NCBI GenBank assembly: GCA_016742275.1
Contig: JACVCD010000010.1
Location: 124,001 to 188,000 of the forward strand
Direction: 5' to 3'
Length of the DNA: 64,000 nt
From: Gemmatimonadaceae bacterium
Lineage (GTDB): Bacteria > Gemmatimonadota > Gemmatimonadetes > Gemmatimonadales > Gemmatimonadaceae
Each line of letters opens with the position of its first letter. Positions within the stretch are counted from its first letter, which is position 1. The notes under the pieces are model-generated. The model saw only the letters and a program-made list of their open reading frames with translations, had not been told where the DNA came from and ran no database searches. Made by a program: the position numbers and the translations under genes. Of the stretch, positions 31,390-41,538 are shown one piece after another.

Positions 31390-31393
31390 ATGA
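31325..31393 (+). CDS. Possible 22-residue leader peptide
   Basis: An ATG at 31325 preceded by GAGGTG (8 nt spacing) opens a frame of 22 codons, MSFDSLGASGPVRSTTPSRA plus two residues. Its TGA overlaps the ATG of the TGS-ACT ATPase (ATGA). The ATPase start itself lacks a good ribosome site, so translation may depend on this leader. It could be a regulatory leader peptide or just a coupling device. Confidence 0.4.
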   Translation: MSFDSLGASGPVRSTTPSRAVR

Positions 31394-33642
31394 TCACGGT
31401 TAAGACACCGAAGGGCGACGAGCGCAAGCTGAAGGCCGGGTCGACTGTTCTTGAGTTCGCTGAGCAACTCCATTCGAACATCCTCCTGCACGCGATCGGA
31501 GCGCGGATTCTCCGAGAAGGCGCAACCACCCCTCACCGTGTCGGCCTCTTACATGGGCTTCGAGACGGCGATACCGTCGAGATCGAGATGGCGATGACGC
31601 CGCAACCGATCCGTCACGACATCGCCATGCGCATGACAGCGAGGTCGCGCCGCAGCTTGCGCGCCGCTTATCGCGAGGCTGCCTCGCGCCGCGGGAGGGC
31701 GTATCTGCAGCGCCGTCTGATCGAGGCGGGAATCTGGCCGGTCCAGGATCAAGATGCGCTCGATGAGATCGTGCAGGATTCGCTCGCACACGCGCGCGCG
31801 CGTAATCGGTTGCGCCGCGAGATCGTCACGATCGAGGACTTCTATCAGGAGCTATACGACTATTTTCACGGTCGACCGGTACCGGGGCGCCTGCAGCCAC
31901 ATCGCATCGAGCACATGCTGCGACTAGTCTTCGAACGGAGCGCACTCCCTATTGCTCGGGCCGCGTTCGGCCGTCTCGCGGCCGAAGTGCAACTCATGAA
32001 ACATTGTCGAGTATGCGCTGGCACCACTCTCGTGGCGCCGCTATTCGAGCTCCGAAACGACGGGATCGTCTGCCACGATCAACGTCATCCATGCGCGGAA
32101 GCAAAAGCCGCCGACTGCTATCCACTGCCTCCGCACAATGCGCAGTACTTTTTTATTGAGGCGAGCGACCGTAGTGGGTTGGTCGCCGACGTGGGAGACG
32201 TATTCGAGGAGGCCGATGTTCAGCTAGACGAGCTCCTCGCGCGCGTGATCGGGCGTCGGACAGCCGCGATTCGTGCACGGGTCGAGCCAAGTTCGCAGGA
32301 GACGATTAACCGCGTGGGGATATTGCTACGTCAAGTGCACGGCGTTGATCCTGAAGGAGTCTTTGGCCCGGAGGATCCGATATCCGCTACGGAAGCACTT
32401 CATTTCGACCCACGTCAACTCGCACGTGAGGTGCGCAAATCGTTCCCGATTGCTCCGTACGATGTTGGCGAGCGCATTCGGCGTGAAGAACGGCTATACG
32501 GCCGTGATGACGAACTCTCGGACTTGTGCCGTCGCATCGAGGCGTCAATCAACTTCGACGAGCCAGAAGATGGGTCCATTTTCATCCACGGTCCGTTCAA
32601 GATCGGAAAATCCTCGCTTGTTTCGACCGCGCTTGCCGTCATCCGACGGACCCACTCTGGCTCTCTTGTATCAACGCACCTCGATGCGGTACGCGGTGAG
32701 CCATGGACGCAGTATTTCGAGCGTGTGTTGGACGATCTTTGGGTGCAGGCAGCACCATTACTCGATGCAGCGCCGGGTGAAAATTGGCGCAATATGCTCG
32801 AGACTTGGGGTGTAAAGGATGGCTCACGCGCGGCCGCGCTGCTGCACCTCACTCGCACGATCATAGATCATCGCGTCCCCGTCGTTATTGCGATCGACGA
32901 AGTGGTATGGCTGCTTCTCAAGATCAGCACGGACCCCCAAGCTTCTGCAGTTTGTGCACAAGCGTTAAATATGCTGCGCGATCAGCGCGGCGTATCATTG
33001 GTTCTGGTAGGGCCCGACCTGATCGGACTGGATATGGATCATAACGTTAGTACCGTGATACGCACATCACGAAAGATGGAAGTCAAATCGCTGACTCGCG
33101 ACAGGTGCGTAGAATTGCTTCTTGCCCAGAAATCTCGCTTGCCCATCGAGGCTGAGGATGCAGTACAGACCGCCGTCTTTCACGAGACGCTCGGTCGGCC
33201 TTACTGGACTCAACTGATTGCGAGCGAGGTTTGGAACGATGTTGTGGCGACTGCTGACGGGACTTGGCACGCAGGTGCGATCCGATATACTGCTGAAGCA
33301 TTTTCGCGTGCACGAGATAAGGTGAGTAAGCTCGTGCTCCCCTTCGAGCAGCAATACCGTCCGTTTCTTGACGGCAAACAAGCGAAACTGACTCGAGCGG
33401 CCCTTCAGCTGTTCGTCGACGACGTACGATCGGACAAGCATGAGGGCATGACGCTCATCGAGATTCAAGAACGCCTCGGAACGGTTTTTCCGAACATATC
33501 AAGTGAATTTCCCCGATGGCTTCAGGATATGGAAGCCGTCGGTACGCTTGTTCGTTTCCACGCGTCTGAGACTTGGCATATGGCTCCAATCCTAGCGAGA
33601 CACTTGGACACGAACGGCATCTTAAACGGCCCTCTATCATGA
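31390..33642 (+). CDS. RelA/SpoT-type regulatory domains (TGS-ZFD-ACT) fused to a P-loop ATPase
   Basis: Residues 1-68 are a TGS domain (MITVKTPKGDERKLKAGSTV). Residues 70-205 are helical and resemble the linker of long RSH proteins (ASRRGRAYLQRRL). Residues 206-236 match the RSH zinc-finger/CC domain (C206, C209, H229, C235). Residues 251-320 are an ACT domain (FFIEASDRSGLVADVGDVF). No ppGpp hydrolase or synthetase is present. From residue 365 a STAND/AAA-like P-loop ATPase follows: YGRDDEL, Walker A GPFKIGKSSL (401-410) and Walker B VPVVIAIDEV (D503/E504). In RelA the same N-terminal set contacts the ribosome and A-site tRNA. The inference is a translation- or tRNA-sensing switch ATPase. 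Its stop overlaps the next start (ATGA). Base composition is lower in GC than the flanks. Confidence 0.82.
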   Translation: MITVKTPKGDERKLKAGSTVLEFAEQLHSNILLHAIGARILREGATTPHRVGLLHGLRDGDTVEIEMAMTPQPIRHDIAMRMTARSRRSLRAAYREAASRRGRAYLQRRLIEAGIWPVQDQDALDEIVQDSLAHARARNRLRREIVTIEDFYQELYDYFHGRPVPGRLQPHRIEHMLRLVFERSALPIARAAFGRLAAEVQLMKHCRVCAGTTLVAPLFELRNDGIVCHDQRHPCAEAKAADCYPLPPHNAQYFFIEASDRSGLVADVGDVFEEADVQLDELLARVIGRRTAAIRARVEPSSQETINRVGILLRQVHGVDPEGVFGPEDPISATEALHFDPRQLAREVRKSFPIAPYDVGERIRREERLYGRDDELSDLCRRIEASINFDEPEDGSIFIHGPFKIGKSSLVSTALAVIRRTHSGSLVSTHLDAVRGEPWTQYFERVLDDLWVQAAPLLDAAPGENWRNMLETWGVKDGSRAAALLHLTRTIIDHRVPVVIAIDEVVWLLLKISTDPQASAVCAQALNMLRDQRGVSLVLVGPDLIGLDMDHNVSTVIRTSRKMEVKSLTRDRCVELLLAQKSRLPIEAEDAVQTAVFHETLGRPYWTQLIASEVWNDVVATADGTWHAGAIRYTAEAFSRARDKVSKLVLPFEQQYRPFLDGKQAKLTRAALQLFVDDVRSDKHEGMTLIEIQERLGTVFPNISSEFPRWLQDMEAVGTLVRFHASETWHMAPILARHLDTNGILNGPLS

Positions 33643-35105
33643 ACACTGCTGTCACGGGGTTGCCTGACTACCGACCGACTGGAGCCGATGCGCTCTTTCG
33701 TCCGCTTTTTGTCAGTAGCATCGAACCTCGTATGGACCGTGCGGTATTGATACTCCGCGCTCCCCGTGCGTGTGGGAAGACCGAGTTAGTCGAGATTATC
33801 ACGGAACGACTCGCAATTCCGCCAGAACACATTATCGACGGAAAGGCTCACGACGCGGCACAAGCGCTCATCGATCTTCAGAAGGCAATTCGCTCGACAC
33901 CGGACTCCTCAATATCTCGCCTCGTAATCGATGATGCCGATGAACTCATTCTCAGGAACCCCGTCGACAGCGAGCGTGGCGAAGGGCTGAGGACAGCGTT
34001 CGAGACGTTGATTTCCGACGCCAACGCATCCAAACCGAGAGTCCGATTAGTCTTGACGATCACGCTCCCTCCCGAGCGGATCAACGAGCCAAGTCAGCTT
34101 ATTTCAGATGTGCTGCGGACGACCCCAATCGAGCCCACAGCGCTTCCCGAAGCAATTTGGCGCGCCGCTCTTCAGGTAGCGGTCGCGGAGGTCGTTCACG
34201 ATGGGCAGCATCAGACATGGCGGGATAAATCGCTCGCGGAATCTCTGTTTCAGTTGAGTGGTGGCCACCCATCTCTGATGGTCGCTGGACTCGACGCACT
34301 CGGCGCGCTCTTCGGCGTGCAGGCCGATCCCGAATTGGAGCGTCGTCGGGAGGATGATGATTTCGTTCGCGGAGTCGTCACTGCCGCGATGCGCTACGAC
34401 GGTGGCCGGCCAATCCGGAAGCAAATCCTGCGAATGCGTGACGTGAACAGCCAAGAGGAAGCAGCACTAGTTGAGAGCGCATTCGATGCACTCAAGTCGC
34501 AACTCGACGTAGCAGGCCATGATTTCTTTACACTCCCTGTTCCTCAAGGGGAACTGTTGCTCGCGGCTGGGCTCATTCGGCTCGTCGACCCAAGACTTCC
34601 AGGTACATTCGCGTTATGGGGTGGGCAGTTCGTCGAAGTGGTACGGACCGCTCTTGCAGCTCCCGCACAGCACACTTTCGACTCGTCCTCAGACGGAAGG
34701 AATTCAACCATTCGTTCCACAGATACCGAGGCTCCTAAGTTCGTCGAGCCTCGCCCCCTTCCGGGCTCAAGACGCGGAGAGCTGCGTCTCGTAAGCCCAG
34801 ACGGTGAGCAGCCGACCGCGAATCTCACGCCGCAGTCATGGCTTATCGCAAGCGAAATTATTAAGGCGAACGGTGGCGTTATCAGCGTCAAGCGTATCTG
34901 TGACTTGCTCTTTCCTGAGACAAGTGAAGGTGAGGAAGAGCAGTCGACAACGGCCCAGAACATGAGCAAGACGATGACCGCGATCCAGCGGATGCTCAAG
35001 GAGATCGCCCGCACGACGGAGAGGCCGATCGTGAATGTTCGAGGCGAAGGGTACCGGTTCGATCGGGAGCACTATCAGCTGCGCGGACTCGTCAATCAAG
35101 AGTGA
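33639..35105 (+). CDS. P-loop ATPase with C-terminal OmpR-type winged helix
   Basis: The ATG at 33639 overlaps the upstream stop (ATGA). The protein is 488 residues long. Walker A is APRACGKT (41-48; the first Gly is Ala), Walker B is RLVIDDADEL (94-103), and an arginine-rich helical region follows. After a Ser/Pro-rich linker (residues about 345-385), the C-terminal 100 residues form a trans_reg_C-like winged helix: WLIASEIIKANGGVISVKR and the wing NVRGEGYRFDRE. So it is likely an ATP-driven DNA-binding partner of the TGS-ACT ATPase, as regulator or effector. I do not recognise a named family. It ends 15 bp before the IS left end and looks complete. Confidence 0.7.
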   Translation: MNTAVTGLPDYRPTGADALFRPLFVSSIEPRMDRAVLILRAPRACGKTELVEIITERLAIPPEHIIDGKAHDAAQALIDLQKAIRSTPDSSISRLVIDDADELILRNPVDSERGEGLRTAFETLISDANASKPRVRLVLTITLPPERINEPSQLISDVLRTTPIEPTALPEAIWRAALQVAVAEVVHDGQHQTWRDKSLAESLFQLSGGHPSLMVAGLDALGALFGVQADPELERRREDDDFVRGVVTAAMRYDGGRPIRKQILRMRDVNSQEEAALVESAFDALKSQLDVAGHDFFTLPVPQGELLLAAGLIRLVDPRLPGTFALWGGQFVEVVRTALAAPAQHTFDSSSDGRNSTIRSTDTEAPKFVEPRPLPGSRRGELRLVSPDGEQPTANLTPQSWLIASEIIKANGGVISVKRICDLLFPETSEGEEEQSTTAQNMSKTMTAIQRMLKEIARTTERPIVNVRGEGYRFDREHYQLRGLVNQE

Positions 35106-35119
35106 GAGAACGGTACAGA

Positions 35120-36400
35120 CCGGGTAGATCGGCAACAGAGTAGTCCAGCAGCATGGGTAACAGTTGCCCCATAGCGTGCACAGCGAGCCCCCTTTCTGCG
35201 AGGTCGCTGATGCCTTGGGCAGAGATTGGCCCGATGGAAGCCCGCCTGCAGTTTGTGCGGGACGCGTTGAGTGATCGTTTCACGATGAGCGAGCTCTGCG
35301 CGCGCTATGGCGTGAGTCGACGGATCGGATACAAATGGCTCGCGCGGTACGAAGCGGAAGGGCGGCCCGGACTGCAGGATCGCAGTCGCGCCCCCATCAG
35401 TGTCCGCATCGTATTCCGCAGGCGGTCGAAGCCCTCCTCGTGCAGGAGCGACAGGCGCACCCGTTCTGGGGCGCACGGAAGCTGCTCAAGGTGCTCGCGA
35501 CGCGCTTTCCGAAGATTCCGCGGTGGCCGGCGCCGAGCACCACCGCGGATCTACTCGCTCGTCATGGCTTGGTGCAAAAGCGTCGGCGGCGGCGCCTGTC
35601 GACCCATCCGGGGATTGTGCGACCGACCACCGCGGCACCGAATGATCTGTGGACCGCCGACTTCAAAGGGGAGTTTCGTACCGGGAATGGGTGGTACTGC
35701 TATCCGCTGACCATCGCCGATCAGCACACGCGCTTTCTCCTGGCGTGCCGTGGTTTGCTCTCGACCAAGACGGTCACCGCCAAGCCCGTGTTCGAGCGCG
35801 TGTTTCGCGAGTATGGCCCGCCCGTCGCGATACGCACGGACAACGGCGTCCCGTTCGCGACACAGGCGATTCACGCGCTCTCATACTTAAACGTGTGGTG
35901 GATGCAACTCGCCATCGGCCATCAACGCATTCACCCGGGTGTCCGCAGGAGAATGGTGCGCACGAGCGCATACATCGCACGCTCAAGCGCCAGGCCATCA
36001 AACCGGTGCGCGGGAACTGCGCGGCGCAGCAACGCAACTTTGATGCGTTCCAACGCGAGTACAACACCGAGCGACCGCATGAGCGACTCAACCAAGAAAC
36101 GCCAGCCTCGCAGTACCACCCGTCGCCGAGATCCTATCCGGATCGTCTGCCGACTCCGGAATACCCGGGGCACTTCCTTGTCAAAAAGATCACAACCGGG
36201 GACGTTTCGCTTTCGCGATCGGCTGCTCTACCTCGCCAATACCATGGTCGATCAACACATGGGATTGGAAGAAACGGACGATGGCATTTGGACGATCCAC
36301 TTCAACACGGTCTTGCTCGCCGAGCGCGACTATCGCATCACGGGGTGACTGAAAAAGTGTTACCCATGTTGCTGGATTTTTCTGTTACCCATCATCCCGG
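35120..36400 (+). mobile_element. IS481-like insertion sequence
   Basis: The element is about 1.28 kb, bounded by imperfect 43-bp inverted repeats (35120-35162 and 36358-36400) that share TCCAGCA-CATGGGTAACA near their inner ends. The transposase matches the IS481 family in order and length but is broken by frameshifts. I cannot recognise a target-site duplication. The right end overlaps the last codons of the neighbouring minus-strand gene. Confidence 0.75.
35210..36348 (+). pseudogene. IS481-like transposase, frameshifted
   Basis: The reading starts at the ATG of MPWAEIGPMEARLQFV with an HTH (MSELCARYGVSRRIGYKWL). It shifts near 35395 to SRPHQCPHRIPQAVEALLVQ and runs through the DDE region (LWTADFKGEFRTGNGW; AIRTDNGVPFA). 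It shifts again near 35940 to PQENGAHERIHRTLKRQ, which contains the catalytic Glu. A third shift near 36195 leads to RDRLLYLANTMVDQHM and the normal end LAERDYRITG. The three acidic residues survive in separate frames. With three shifts it is not active by itself. Confidence 0.8.
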
Positions 36401-37098
36401 CTGTTCACGGCGAGATCGGTAGCGGCAACCATCATGTCGCGCATTGCATCGGCGAGCCACGTTAGGAGCGCTCGAAACTCCGCCTCATCGCCGGCTAACG
36501 CGTTGTGACTCCAACGTTCCGCGAACGCCAGCAGTTGTGCTGGTGGTAGAGGAACGCCGGCCGATGCATAGACGATTCGCGGGATGTCTGAACGATGCGT
36601 CATCGTGTTTCGGAAGTCGGTCCAGAGCTCCCATTCTCCAGAATCAAGGCGAGCGCGGATCACATCCGTTAGCCGAGCATTCGGTAGTTCGGCCATCAGC
36701 TGATCGCGAAGCCATCTCAAGCTGCTTCGTCGTCGGTTTCCCTCGTCAAAAGCAAATGCAGGGGGAGTGAGCACGGATAGAAGCGCGTGACAGGAATATG
36801 AGATCGTCTCAAGCGATGCGACCCCGCACGAGAACATGCCGTACAGGGCTCTCTCCCTTGCATACTGGGTTTCGAAACCGGCCTGGACGCCAACCGAACG
36901 CCATGAGTCCACGATCTCCGAAGCGTATTCCGCGCATGCGCGGAAACGCCAGCCGATCAGGTTGCACGCACCGTTAAACTCGCGATGAGGCTCAGACGGC
37001 TGGGTAAGCCGCCTGCGCGCGGCTTCATAAAATTGGACAAACTCCGCTAGAGGGAAATCCGGCGGCAGTTCCAACTGGTGAGGACTACTGAATGGCAC
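36385..37098 (-). CDS. Cassette protein with HEPN-like RNxxxH motif
   Basis: This 237-residue protein is mostly helical and contains LWTDFRNTMTHRSD with R163 and H168, the Rx4H pattern of HEPN ribonuclease-like domains. A second helical region surrounds GACNLIGWRFRACAEYASEIV. The last codons (SRDDG and stop) lie inside the IS right inverted repeat, so the original 3' end and any attC site were lost to the insertion. I recognise no named family. It is the last gene of the cassette row, 28 bp after an attC-like site. Confidence 0.55.
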   Translation of the reverse strand: MPFSSPHQLELPPDFPLAEFVQFYEAARRRLTQPSEPHREFNGACNLIGWRFRACAEYASEIVDSWRSVGVQAGFETQYARERALYGMFSCGVASLETISYSCHALLSVLTPPAFAFDEGNRRRSSLRWLRDQLMAELPNARLTDVIRARLDSGEWELWTDFRNTMTHRSDIPRIVYASAGVPLPPAQLLAFAERWSHNALAGDEAEFRALLTWLADAMRDMMVAATDLAVNSRDDG

Positions 37099-37126
37099 GT
37101 CGGGTGTTCATTGTGGGTTGGTAGCT

Positions 37127-37236
37127 ACCTAACGCTCGCGTTCTGTTCCGCGCCCTCCAGTAGGTTGCGGCCAAGGGGCGGAGCGAGCAAGGCCGCAATC
37201 ATTAACGGCGCTGTCAACAGCAACACACTGTTAAGC
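37127..37236 (-). repeat. attC-like integron recombination site
   Basis: On the minus strand it runs from GCTTAAC (R'' core, RYYYAAC) to GTTAGGT (R' core, GTTRRRY), 110 bp. An internal GCGGCC...GGCCGC arm pair gives the long hairpin expected of attC. It separates two minus-strand ORFs. The L boxes are weak. Confidence 0.6.
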
Positions 37237-37289
37237 AACACTGGCACACGACCGCCCGATCTAAGGAGAGAACGCCAGAACTCGTCGAC

Positions 37290-38465
37290 TTATCCTCGAT
37301 CTGTCAGCGGTGCTATAGGTAGGCTCGCGAACTTGGCCAAAGGTGCGCTCGGAACTGTCTCGGGATCCTGCCGTCCCGCGAACGAGATTCGAACGTTACC
37401 CCAACTGCCCGAATGGTTCTCCACCTTCACAATGAGATTTCCCCAGTGCCTGCGTCGCTGCGCTCCAACGCCCTGCTCACTCTGCGGAGGAACCACGTCG
37501 ACCTTGATCTCGGGTGGGACGATCGACGCCTTTAGCTGATCAACTGAGAGCCCGTGCAGAGTAACAGCGACGGTAACTTCGCCCTTCCCTTCCGGGAGGA
37601 TGTACATGATTCTATCCAGCGAGGTTGCAGCATCACCGCGCACTTCCAAGACGTCAGCAATAGCCCGGATGAGCGCCCTGTGCAGTATCGGAACTATGTC
37701 CGGAAGGTGGACTCGCTCTTCATAGAAATGACCGGAGCCATGCTGCAGAGAGCGCCGAATGTTCCTCGCATGATTGGCGGTCTTCTTGTCGGAGCCAGCG
37801 AGCGTAACGACAGCGAAGGTAATTCCAGCAGATGAGCCGAAGACCTCCATTGGAGCATTGCAGATGGCGCAGTGCCGTGCCACGAACTTTGTCGGAAGCG
37901 AGTACTTCTCGATGAGACGACCGTTGATGCTTTCGAGCCCCAGCCAGAGCTGAGAGAACTGCTGCACGAGATCATCAGTAAGAGCAGCTTGCCGAGCATG
38001 CGCGATCGCTCGCGCGATCCTAGAGTCCTGCAGACTGTTTGTCCCCTCCGTCGCTCCTTTCAAAAAACTCCCGAAGAGCTCCTCGCTGACGATCCGCGGA
38101 TTCGGAATAAGTGTTGGAATGTCTTCGAAAAACTGCGCGAGCTCTCTATCTTCTGATCTCTCGTCCAGATCGATAGCCCAGAGCGAAGTCACGTGCCCAA
38201 CGCCGGCTCCATGACTCGCGGAAAGAACGCCGCAGAAGTTCTCGATCGCGCTCCGACCGCGCTCAACTGCTGTTTCAATGTCTTCAGCGTTCATCCAAGC
38301 CCTGAAATCAAGGCCAACGTGAGCGGTAGAGCTTCCGCTCGTCAGTTCACGGTTGCTCATCCAAATCTCGGCGCCGTCGTCGACCATCACAACTTTTATC
38401 CCACCTGTTGGAAATCTAAGAGGCGTCGGGACATTCGCGCGAATTAGATATCGCTTGTCATTCAT
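37290..38465 (-). CDS. Cassette protein with zinc-knuckle-like CxxC and Rx4H motif
   Basis: I chose the Met at 38465 (MNDKRYLIRANVPTP); the longer frame from 38555 adds a low-quality 30 residues. The protein of 391 residues has a helical core with HCAICNAP (C199, C202). After that comes KTANHARNIRRSLQHGSGHF, which contains R237-x4-H242, again a HEPN-like pattern. The C-terminal 90 residues are beta-rich. It lies 183 bp after the next HEPN-like gene on the same strand, without a clear attC between them, so both may belong to one two-gene cassette. Function unknown. Confidence 0.5.
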   Translation of the reverse strand: MNDKRYLIRANVPTPLRFPTGGIKVVMVDDGAEIWMSNRELTSGSSTAHVGLDFRAWMNAEDIETAVERGRSAIENFCGVLSASHGAGVGHVTSLWAIDLDERSEDRELAQFFEDIPTLIPNPRIVSEELFGSFLKGATEGTNSLQDSRIARAIAHARQAALTDDLVQQFSQLWLGLESINGRLIEKYSLPTKFVARHCAICNAPMEVFGSSAGITFAVVTLAGSDKKTANHARNIRRSLQHGSGHFYEERVHLPDIVPILHRALIRAIADVLEVRGDAATSLDRIMYILPEGKGEVTVAVTLHGLSVDQLKASIVPPEIKVDVVPPQSEQGVGAQRRRHWGNLIVKVENHSGSWGNVRISFAGRQDPETVPSAPLAKFASLPIAPLTDRG

Positions 38466-38648
38466 CTGAGTTCGTCCAAAGCTGGGTGGCATAGCTGCAG
38501 GAGTTTGCTCGCTCTGCATGCGGAGGAAGAGGCGTACAGTCCGTGTGGGTACCACCTGAGTGAATGAATCTGCTTATGTTGCGCGACGACCGCACGAATG
38601 GTCCGCCTGATCACAATACGCAGGTCGCTGCGTCAGCAGCAAACTGGG

Positions 38649-39584
38649 TTAGAACGCTGCGTCGCTCACAAGTAGGATATCGGAGAGAAGCTTGCGCAGA
38701 GCGAACTCGAGATTGTTGCCAGCATCTACGAGCTCTCCTGCTTCGGGCGCACTGTCGCCATGCGTGATCTTGTTTCGCAGTTCATACGCCACATCGAACG
38801 CGTCGACTCCGACCTCCCCCGCAGCGAGACGCAAAGCGCTTCTGCATGCCGATCGGCTGCCTTCCGTCTTGAGCCCTCCGAATATGCTGCGAAGTCTGTT
38901 CAACTGTTCGGGTTCGAGCCCATCAGCATTGGCTTCCAAGAGGCCGATCGCCCGATCCAAGAAGGCCAGTTCCTTCTCGGGACGATCCGTCTTCTCGACC
39001 ACCGCTTCAACCGCGGCGGTTAGGAGAAGTAGTCGAGCCATTGAAGAGTTCTCAGAACGCGAACTTCCCCAGAGGTCAAAAGCAACTCGTGCGCGTGCCG
39101 CACCAAGGGCGGAGCGCGCCACGTTCTTCTCCGCGTGCTGTATGTACGGTTCGAACAGTGTACCGGTGCGCAGAAGCACGGGGCCAGCGCTGGCAAACCG
39201 TGTCGGTGTGCCAGCAGTGTATAGCGTTGTGCCAAGCTCGCCCTGCAGAACCGCGCTGTTGTGTTGCTGCGCAAACTGGTCGAGGGCAAATACGGTGAAC
39301 TTTGTCTCAGGACGACGGGCGAAGAAGCTAACTGCGAATCCACGCTCCACAGAGACGGACATGAGGATCGCCTCGAGCGACTTTGCGCAGAGCTCGGCTT
39401 CCTCGCGCGTCTCAAAGGCTGGTGTTTTCACCGCGATTCGCTGCGAGACGTAGTCGCTCCCCTTGCCAATCTCCTTTATCTCGTATGGCTTACGCGTGTT
39501 GCTCAGATGGAACCGAGTGTCGCTCGCGATGCCTTTGATTTGATGGCCTACTTCGACGTCAAACACGATACGCGCACGAAGCAT
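38649..39584 (-). CDS. Cassette protein with HEPN-like C-terminal domain
   Basis: The 311-residue protein has a beta-rich N-terminal part (RARIVFDVEVGHQIKGI ... FAVSFFARRPETKFTVF). A C-terminal helical domain follows, with ARLLLLTAAVEAVVEK and DVAYELRNKITHGDSAPEAG. The latter gives R270-x4-H275, the typical RN-K-x-x-H signature of Apea/HEPN-type domains, which are often RNases or nucleotide-binding folds in conflict systems. The stop TAA lies within a TTCTAAC sequence like an R'' core, but a matching R' core is not found downstream. Upstream is the attC site at 39681-39789. Confidence 0.6.
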   Translation of the reverse strand: MLRARIVFDVEVGHQIKGIASDTRFHLSNTRKPYEIKEIGKGSDYVSQRIAVKTPAFETREEAELCAKSLEAILMSVSVERGFAVSFFARRPETKFTVFALDQFAQQHNSAVLQGELGTTLYTAGTPTRFASAGPVLLRTGTLFEPYIQHAEKNVARSALGAARARVAFDLWGSSRSENSSMARLLLLTAAVEAVVEKTDRPEKELAFLDRAIGLLEANADGLEPEQLNRLRSIFGGLKTEGSRSACRSALRLAAGEVGVDAFDVAYELRNKITHGDSAPEAGELVDAGNNLEFALRKLLSDILLVSDAAF

Positions 39585-39680
39585 TTTCGCTCCTCAACTC
39601 CTGCTGTAACACGCTGCGCCTGCGAAGCGGAGGGCCGGCTCCGCAGGCACGAAACGGCTTTGCGCTGCCGCGCGACTGCG

Positions 39681-39789
39681 GCCTAACGCTGAAGTTCAGC
39701 AGCGGCGGCAGTCAACAAGTTGCGGCAGGTGGGCGCAGCCCGCCAGCCGCAGTCCTAAGTGCCGCCGTCGGCTGCAACGCACGTTAGGG
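39681..39789 (-). repeat. attC-like integron recombination site
   Basis: On the minus strand it runs from CCCTAAC to GTTAGGC over 109 bp. The L boxes GCGTTGCAGC and GCTGAACTTC pair with one extrahelical base, as in true attC sites, and the inner arms GGCGGCA/TGCCGCC also pair. The stop codon of the upstream ORF (TAA) lies inside the first core, a common arrangement for gene cassettes. Confidence 0.8.
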
Positions 39790-40266
39790 CTCACGGGTAC
39801 GCAGTCGACTGAAGTCTGCAGCGAGATACTTTTCCCACTGCGGCTTGCAGTACTCTTCTGTTACTCCAGTTACCTTGTTCTTTCGAGCGCCGTTAAACCA
39901 AACACTTCGCTTACCGGCGTTCTTTCCGTTCTTGTTCTGCACAGCGTTGGCGACGAACTCCGCAGAGGACATGATCCAAGTGAGGTCAAGCCGTTCGGAG
40001 TAGAAGATGAACCAATAGTCCTCACGATGTTCGTGCTCGATGGCTGCAAATAGTGCTGCATCCCGATCGACAACTGCGCGCGACCTTGCTTTGATTTGCA
40101 CAAGTGCGATGGTTCCATCGTCTCGACGGACAATTGCGTCGACGGCGTGATCATCGACGAGCGGGATGTATACATCCATCCCCTCCTTGAGCATCCTACC
40201 AATTATCCAGTACTCGATACGCTTTCCGAATCCTGCAGAGTGTCGGAAGGTGCCAGGCAAGGTCAT
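39784..40266 (-). CDS. Cassette protein with PD-(D/E)XK-like nuclease pattern
   Basis: The 160-residue protein starts TFRHSAGFGKRIEYWIIGRMLKEGMDVY and has VDAIVRRDDG followed by ALVQIKARS. The set E18, D43, Q57-x-K59 fits the E...D...(E/Q)xK core of restriction-endonuclease-like folds. The later stretch YWFIFYSERLDLTWIMSSAEF is like Holliday-junction-resolvase-type or group I homing-like nuclease relatives. The family cannot be named. The stop is inside the attC core. It is preceded by a core-like GTTAGGG (40291-40297 on the minus strand), so it is the first recognisable cassette of the row. Confidence 0.6.
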   Translation of the reverse strand: MTLPGTFRHSAGFGKRIEYWIIGRMLKEGMDVYIPLVDDHAVDAIVRRDDGTIALVQIKARSRAVVDRDAALFAAIEHEHREDYWFIFYSERLDLTWIMSSAEFVANAVQNKNGKNAGKRSVWFNGARKNKVTGVTEEYCKPQWEKYLAADFSRLRTREP

Positions 40267-40593
40267 GAGTATCGAAAATGATGTAGGTAGCCCTAACGCT
40301 TATTAGCCCGCGTGCGATCACTACAGCCAACTGTTTATACCGCTGATTTTCGCAGCATAACAATCCGGCAATACGCGGCAGTTCAGTACACCATCCAATT
40401 GCACAGCCAGAACTTACGGCGCACTTAGGCCCAATCGCCAGCCCGCGTTCTCCTGCGCTTATCGCGCTATATCACGCCGGTCGCCAGAGAGAGTCACGGA
40501 AGGACATGGCCCGCTGCCAACGCGTCGTCCAATTGACTCCGATCGCGCCATTACAGACCCGCAGCCACCCCGCGCACCAGGCTATCTTTCAGT
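40267..40593. other. Junction of cassette row and core genes, no gene
   Basis: The segment holds a single attC/attI-type core (GTTAGGG, minus strand, 40291-40297) with a flanking GCTAATAAGC arm. No second core is found within 140 bp. No integrase gene lies in the window. The right part presumably carries the promoter of the hydrolase at 40594; I see no clear boxes. Confidence 0.45.
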
Positions 40594-41538
40594 GTGTCCT
40601 CCCCCGCCCTCTCCCGATATCTGGCGTTCCGACGCTCGCTCCCGCCACGTCCGGCGCTCGAACAGCGCAAGGTGCGCGCGCGTGGTCTCGACTTCGCGGT
40701 GTTCCTCACGCCGCCCGTCGAGGGCACACTGCCGCTACTCTGCATCAATGGTGGCCTGATCTACGATCACAAGCTGCTGTGGCCCGCGCTCGCGCCACTC
40801 GCGACACACCGGCAGCTCATTCTCTACGATCAGCGCGGTCGTGGTCAATCACAGGCGCCGCCAGGCATCAGCGCCAGTCGCATTGAATTCGACGCCGGCG
40901 ACATTCCGGTCATTCGCAAAGCGCTCGGCATCACCCAGTGGGATGTGCTCGGTCACTCGTGGGGCGGCGGCATAGCCATGCTCTCCACAGCGCTTGATAT
41001 CAAAGCGAGTCCCAACGCGGTACGTCGACTGGTGCTTGTGAACGCCGTGGGTATCACCAGCCGCTGGCTCGGTCCGCTGCACAATGCAGGCGTGGAACGC
41101 CTCAAGAATGAAGGCAGCGCAGAAGATCATGCGCGCCTCGCGGCCTTCGATCCCACCACACTCGAAACACCGGGCATCGAACACCACGCGGCGTACACAC
41201 GCGCGTATTTCCCGGCCTGGTTTGGCGATCAGGAGTTCGCGCGCAACGTGAATCCGCCACTCGGCGACAGTGAAACGGGCACTCACGTGGTCGCCCGCCT
41301 GCGCCGCGAGGGCTACGACTGGACGGACCGCCTGCGTGACCTGCCCGTCCCCACACTCGTCGTGCATGGTGCGGCCGACGTGCTGCCACTGGCCGAAGCG
41401 GAGAACACCGCCCGGACACTGGGCAACGCGCGCGTCGCACCTATTCCCGAGGCGGGACACAATCCGTTCTGGGAGTCGCCCGAGTTGTTCTTCACCACGG
41501 TGGACACCTTCCTTCGCGAGGGCCAACCCGCCGGCTGA
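40594..41538 (+). CDS. Alpha/beta hydrolase (proline iminopeptidase-like)
   Basis: The 314-residue protein has the alpha/beta-hydrolase core: LCINGGLIYDHKLLWPAL (oxyanion region), LILYDQRGRGQSQAP, the nucleophile elbow VLGHSWGGGIAM, the acid in VVHGAADVLP and the His in PEAGHNPFWESPE. GHSWGG and DQRGRGxS are typical for S33 prolyl aminopeptidase-like enzymes, though esterase activity is possible. No signal peptide. The start at 40594 is GTG; an earlier or later start by a few codons is possible. The next gene follows after 17 bp. Confidence 0.82.
   Translation: MSSPALSRYLAFRRSLPPRPALEQRKVRARGLDFAVFLTPPVEGTLPLLCINGGLIYDHKLLWPALAPLATHRQLILYDQRGRGQSQAPPGISASRIEFDAGDIPVIRKALGITQWDVLGHSWGGGIAMLSTALDIKASPNAVRRLVLVNAVGITSRWLGPLHNAGVERLKNEGSAEDHARLAAFDPTTLETPGIEHHAAYTRAYFPAWFGDQEFARNVNPPLGDSETGTHVVARLRREGYDWTDRLRDLPVPTLVVHGAADVLPLAEAENTARTLGNARVAPIPEAGHNPFWESPELFFTTVDTFLREGQPAG

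Follow-up and report, generated by a model that had tools for sequence, protein, structure and literature searches.

How does a short row of integron-type cassettes come to lie in a genome with no integrase gene beside it, and is such a row a working part of an integron or what is left of one? Arrays of this kind, known as CALINs, are frequent, and there is debate over whether they arise by rearrangement, by loss of intI or by off-target insertion. In one published account an array without intI is static, and each integron is assumed to have a single attI. The question is raised here by a 64,000-nucleotide stretch of DNA (the window) from a Gemmatimonadaceae bacterium. It corresponds to bases 124001-188000 of C20, a contig of 209 kb in a genome of 4.57 Mb, 33 contigs and 99.6% completeness, the gene content of which suggests a member of the Gemmatimonadota.

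An earlier note, made from the sequence alone, had placed two attC-like sites of 109 and 110 bp on the minus strand of the window; a covariance-model search was to check them, an absence of hits counting against the claim. Rfam at gathering thresholds gave no matches in the window and the attC model was therefore constructed from relatives. This model, R1, was trained on 34 attC sites that belong to arrays 3′ of intI in other genomes, the source genome contributing none; the pairing of the R and L boxes was specified manually. It returned both sites as strong matches, attC-1 at 39681-39789 (minus strand) with 67.5 bits (E 5.9e-16) and attC-2 at 37127-37236 (minus strand) with 46.3 bits (E 3.4e-10). 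The third-ranked match was the opposite-strand reading of one palindrome, and the next independent score in the 64 kb was 15.9 bits. Within the training set 92% of cells are paired and 16 pairs have changes on both sides, counts that are partly built in, as the training sequences were chosen for complementary arms; since the window contributed nothing to R1, its scores are the test of the sites. A scan of the whole window for arm complementarity, independent of R1, detected these two sites and nothing else, the background being three matches in 203 kb of non-integron DNA. A strict-core folding scan detected one of the two, the core of the second being non-standard. Extrahelical bases, which the note had described in the L boxes of one site, are found on the 5′ arm of both and are oriented as minus-strand cassettes require. 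The ORF stop that it saw inside a core is the TAA of ORF 40266-39784, within the R'' core CCCTAAC.

Read on the minus strand, the first cassette runs from the crossover in the attI core to that in attC-1 (39687-40296) and holds an ORF of 160 aa (39784-40266). It is followed by ORFs of 311 aa (38649-39584) and 421 aa (37290-38555). The description of the ORFs as separated by attC sites is correct for the two sites above but not between these last two: the only candidate there, at 38574-38642, scored 3.6 bits with filters off and was rejected, so that both ORFs form one two-gene cassette. Past attC-2 lies the start of a third cassette, with an ORF of 237 aa (36385-37098) that is followed by no attC and is shortened, its stop codon lying within sequence resembling an IS end. 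The row then ends, as had been noted, at an insertion sequence, an IS481-like element (35144-36376, plus strand) that has inverted repeats of 19 bp and a transposase broken across several frames. To the left of this element, at window positions 31390-35105, are two neighbouring plus-strand genes. The product of the first (750 aa) combines TGS/ACT and AAA ATPase domains, and that of the second (510 aa) is an AAA protein whose C-terminal part weakly matches a winged helix; no defence model matched them above noise. To the right of the array is a hydrolase-matrixin pair conserved in the genus. The left neighbour varies between relatives and no integron is present at the hydrolase-matrixin locus among the relatives read there, so that the insertion in the window cannot be dated.

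The nature of the array is revealed at its upstream edge. The lone core that had been taken to mark this edge is present, and it is the crossover site of an attI (GTTAGGG, 40297-40291, minus strand). This core closes a unit of about 200 bp (40291-40493, minus strand), the other end of which is the box CTCTCTCT, and an L half-site, GCGGGCTAAT, is read at 40311-40302 on the same strand. Comparison of window positions 40285-40600 with the rest of the genome gave a match directly after the stop codon of an intI gene on another contig, C4, with 88% identity over 251 bp; the alignment breaks off exactly at GTTAGG, the recombination point. The matching DNA takes in the last 15 codons of an intI, RSQLDDALAAGHVLP (40497-40541, minus strand), together with its stop codon (40494-40496, minus strand), as read from the alignment with the C4 intI, tblastn and translation. 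Ten of the 15 residues are identical to those of the C4 IntI, at its residues 322-336. The statement that the window holds no integrase is thus true of an intact gene, but had passed over this stump.

An attI profile built without the source genome recognised the window attI with an E value of 2.1e-9 and found exactly four copies in the loci fetched from that genome. Besides the one on C4, the window attI matches C13:245468-245667 (78% identity) and C13:674-756 (87%). The full profile, run against 288 kb of control DNA, gave a single weak match, a decayed copy on contig C30 (E 0.0027); this decayed unit, at L019 3407-3468, may be the fossil of a further platform. The half-site GCAGTCTAAT is repeated within the unit, and in the clearest examples it occurs once at -14 and in pairs at -64/-46 and -174/-157. 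The accessory half-sites of the window attI are weaker, with three mismatches. The homology between the window and C4 is some 50 bp longer than that of the other attI-headed arrays without intI, hereafter satellites, which share the 200-bp unit or less. The 15-codon stump indicates that the window copy derives from an intI-attI region rather than from a free attI.

With at least two attC close together (two R1 matches 2.4 kb apart), co-oriented ORFs and no neighbouring integron integrase, the only one above the family cut-off being on C4, the array falls within the formal definition of a CALIN, and the cassettes, orientation and edges reported in the earlier note stand. Unlike a CALIN, however, it is headed by an attI and an intI stump, and this attI is common to the intI-linked locus and the other arrays of the genome; the label CALIN-like therefore understates it. 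Of the parts of a complete integron, it has attC sites with R and L boxes and extrahelical bases in cassette orientation and an attI ahead of the first cassette, and lacks intI in cis. In class 1 integrons with a truncated intI1, a cassette array and attI also lie beside a shortened integrase gene. The present case differs from these in that an intact integrase exists in the same genome and the pattern is repeated at several loci in sister genomes. In Xanthomonas, arrays occupy fixed loci away from intI in about half of the genomes, and the available portion of that study makes no mention of attI at its CALINs (PMC12444791). According to the available portion of another study, Delta-attI-type cassettes of mobile integrons carry an attI, or a truncated one, downstream of the cassette gene, where it acts as the cassette's own site (PMC12901181). 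They resemble the present array in having attI-derived sequence away from intI but, as there described, differ from it, since the present units, complete and about 200 bp long, stand at the head of entire arrays.

The genome-wide search for intI, proposed in the note as a further check, found one integron-integrase gene, intact and located at C4:120898-121827 (383.6 bits against a family cut-off of 265), in which the tyrosine-recombinase residues R, HxxR, H and Y are present by eye. Its own attI lies directly 3′ of it, followed by its own cassettes, and the gene points toward both. Across the whole genome 14 attC were detected and no others, of which C4 has four, the window two and C13 eight, giving three cassette arrays and four attI copies for one intI. 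The eight attC on C13 lie beneath an attI without intI (L016, 10967-18405); the cargo of this array includes a PLD-like nuclease and a zinc-finger protein, and one of its cassettes is 75% identical to a cassette of a satellite in a sister species, G025. The fourth attI copy, also on C13, consists of the final 83 bp of the unit alone and is followed by transposase-like DNA with no recognised attC.

In most of 21 intI loci from relatives, a site resembling CTAAT-N4-GTTRRRY is found roughly 80-330 bp 3′ of intI. Nearly all attC detected at these loci are also on the 3′ side, the few weak matches on the opposite side looking like noise. The layout is thus reversed, with intI pointing toward attI and the array 3′ of the gene, as in the integrons of Treponema (PMC3607928) and Archaea (PMC9668308). 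In the Treponema study each integron has one attI (PMC3607928), whereas the source genome has one intI alongside several attI-headed arrays.

When the attI profile was applied to arrays of the genus, ten more satellites were found in seven sister species, two each in G028, G005 and G025 and one each in G001, G017, G015 and G022; as the G022 locus and the second G025 locus were picked for their attI match, the proportion of attI-headed arrays is not unbiased. At every one of the ten, attI and attC are on the same strand. Not all integrase-less arrays are built in this way, since no attI was found by profile at three of them (G005 C5, G005 C2:195-204 kb and G029 4.46 Mb). When the C4 IntI was used as a tblastn query, neither an integrase gene nor a longer intI remnant was detected beside the satellites, the one clear match being a cassette-encoded tyrosine recombinase in a G005 satellite (32% identical). 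At locus L219 (16958-16170) the product of the cassette adjoining attI is a tyrosine recombinase, about 300 aa long and 32.5% identical to IntI; this cassette lies within a segment also present in an intI-linked array, L184, and related DNA occurs in L177. Integron-integrase matches (E <= 1e-60) number exactly one in each of G005, G028, G025, G001, G017 and G015, and zero in G022.

One of these satellites, downstream of a cystathionine-beta-synthase-like gene, is common to G005, G017 and G028. Between G017 and G028 identity is 81% over 4 kb up to the attI core, with none beyond: in 50-bp windows it is mostly 84-98% in the coding flank, 64-80% in the spacer and 84-90% in the attI unit, falling past the core to 24-44%, the chance level. 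In G005 the flank is 96% identical and the attI is of a different type, and the first cassette is identical at 1224 of 1224 positions to a cassette of another array in the same genome. The left join of this cassette reads GGCTAATAG|GCGTTCGGC and its right end falls at GTTA, the canonical crossover. The genome of G028 is assembled in one contig; there the intI-linked array and a satellite, about 0.8 Mb from each other if the contig is circular, have a cassette in common (620/632 identical). A satellite common to G001 and G022 has flanks that are 95-98% identical and contents that differ. G005 also contains a recent copy of an attI unit with its first cassette (2621/2626), which begins at the edge of the unit.

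These comparisons, made at the level of sequence, indicate that satellites in the sister species are alive, with cassette exchange and site-specific insertion at attI sites that have no integrase beside them. The agent would be the distant IntI, as it is the sole integron integrase found in those genomes and action in trans on CALIN cassettes is accepted (PMC9668308, PMC12444791). A share in these events could also fall to a different recombinase or to homologous recombination among attI copies. Moreover, IntI can recombine two attI sites (PMC8946536), which makes exchange between array heads possible; recombination of attI with attI by IntI and homologous recombination are equally possible routes for it.

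The feature in the window is, in our judgement, an attI-headed satellite array of a multi-platform integron, probably served in trans by a distant IntI. Its own attI would give it a defined point of cassette insertion with no adjoining intI, and the C4 IntI, the only one in the genome, would insert and remove its cassettes through recombination of attI with attC. The window copy would have arisen from an intI-attI region from which all but 15 codons of intI were lost, and the IS481-like element would later have cut the far end of the array. We infer that its attI is still usable. No insertion event was caught at the window array, no relative sharing the insertion and no cassette having a twin in the genome.

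The alternative that survives best, although we consider it unlikely, is that of a dead relic: a second integron, once complete, would have lost intI, leaving behind an inert attI and inert cassettes in decay. The stump ahead of attI fits simple decay, as do the small size of the array and its IS-truncated end, and like cases are described in Treponema phagedenis (PMC3607928) and Xanthomonas (PMC12444791). Against this, the window attI retains its core and L half-site, and on C13 the same attI heads a larger array of eight attC. In the sister species, moreover, the attI unit of orthologous satellites is better conserved than the adjoining spacer while the cassettes have turned over fully, and a cassette was inserted recently at such a site.

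Insertion by IntI into a chance attG-like site, with no involvement of attI, is one published proposal for the origin of CALINs (PMC8618304), and insertion at attG has been described for E. coli (work cited in PMC12444791). A chance site would have no homology to attI, and the roughly 250 bp of attI and intI end ahead of the first cassette, homologous to the intI-linked attI, contradict this reading, which we regard as very improbable. Separation of the window array from the C4 integron, by rearrangement, also a published proposal (PMC8618304), or by an assembly error in a genome of 33 contigs, is just as hard to credit: cassettes of its own directly follow the C4 attI, the attI of the window has diverged from it (88% identity) and is situated deep within a 209-kb contig, and the single-contig G028 has the same pattern. 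Chance inverted repeats with short, degenerate cores are refuted by the E values, 6e-16 and 3e-10 for the attC sites under a model built on other genomes and 2e-9 for the attI profile.

If the satellite reading is extended to the genus, we lean slightly towards a distributed integron in which one integrase serves several scattered attI heads of about 200 bp, these being maintained by selection and copied or swapped between loci, with cassettes circulating among the banks. Every part of such a system, attC, attI, reversed intI and CALIN, is already known. In the open-access literature we found no description of one integrase with several attI-headed arrays and sequence evidence of insertion at the satellites. 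Arrays that carry attI and still receive cassettes from a single distant integrase would offer a concrete and testable origin for conserved arrays away from intI, and searches limited to intI and attC overlook such insertion points. If the arrangement is general, several cassette banks, differing in their neighbours and perhaps in their expression, could be run simultaneously by one integrase.

The cassette proteins of the window have no family match above cut-off. The 160-aa protein has a weak PD-(D/E)XK nuclease match below cut-off and one relative, 61% identical, on an Acidisoma plasmid. Among 395 genomes of the phylum the 311-aa protein has no homologs and the 421-aa protein one relative, 27% identical, in another genus; neither has a plasmid homolog, and the latter has no viral homolog either. 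Rx4H motifs resembling those of HEPN RNases were seen by eye in three cassette ORFs, among them RNKITH near the C end of the 311-aa protein and RNTMTH in the 237-aa protein; Pfam and PADLOC match none of them, and AlphaFold2 models of two of the Rx4H proteins have a pLDDT of 40. For the integron system as a whole a defence cargo is plausible, given a CBASS in the C4 array and a Gabija system beside an attI. The CBASS, at L007 1992-4232, is a two-gene system between two attC and hence a single integron cassette, encoding a patatin-like effector and a CD-NTase (PADLOC E about 1e-103 and 3e-102). The Gabija genes gajA and gajB, at L018 674-5064 on C13, end directly before the fourth attI copy.
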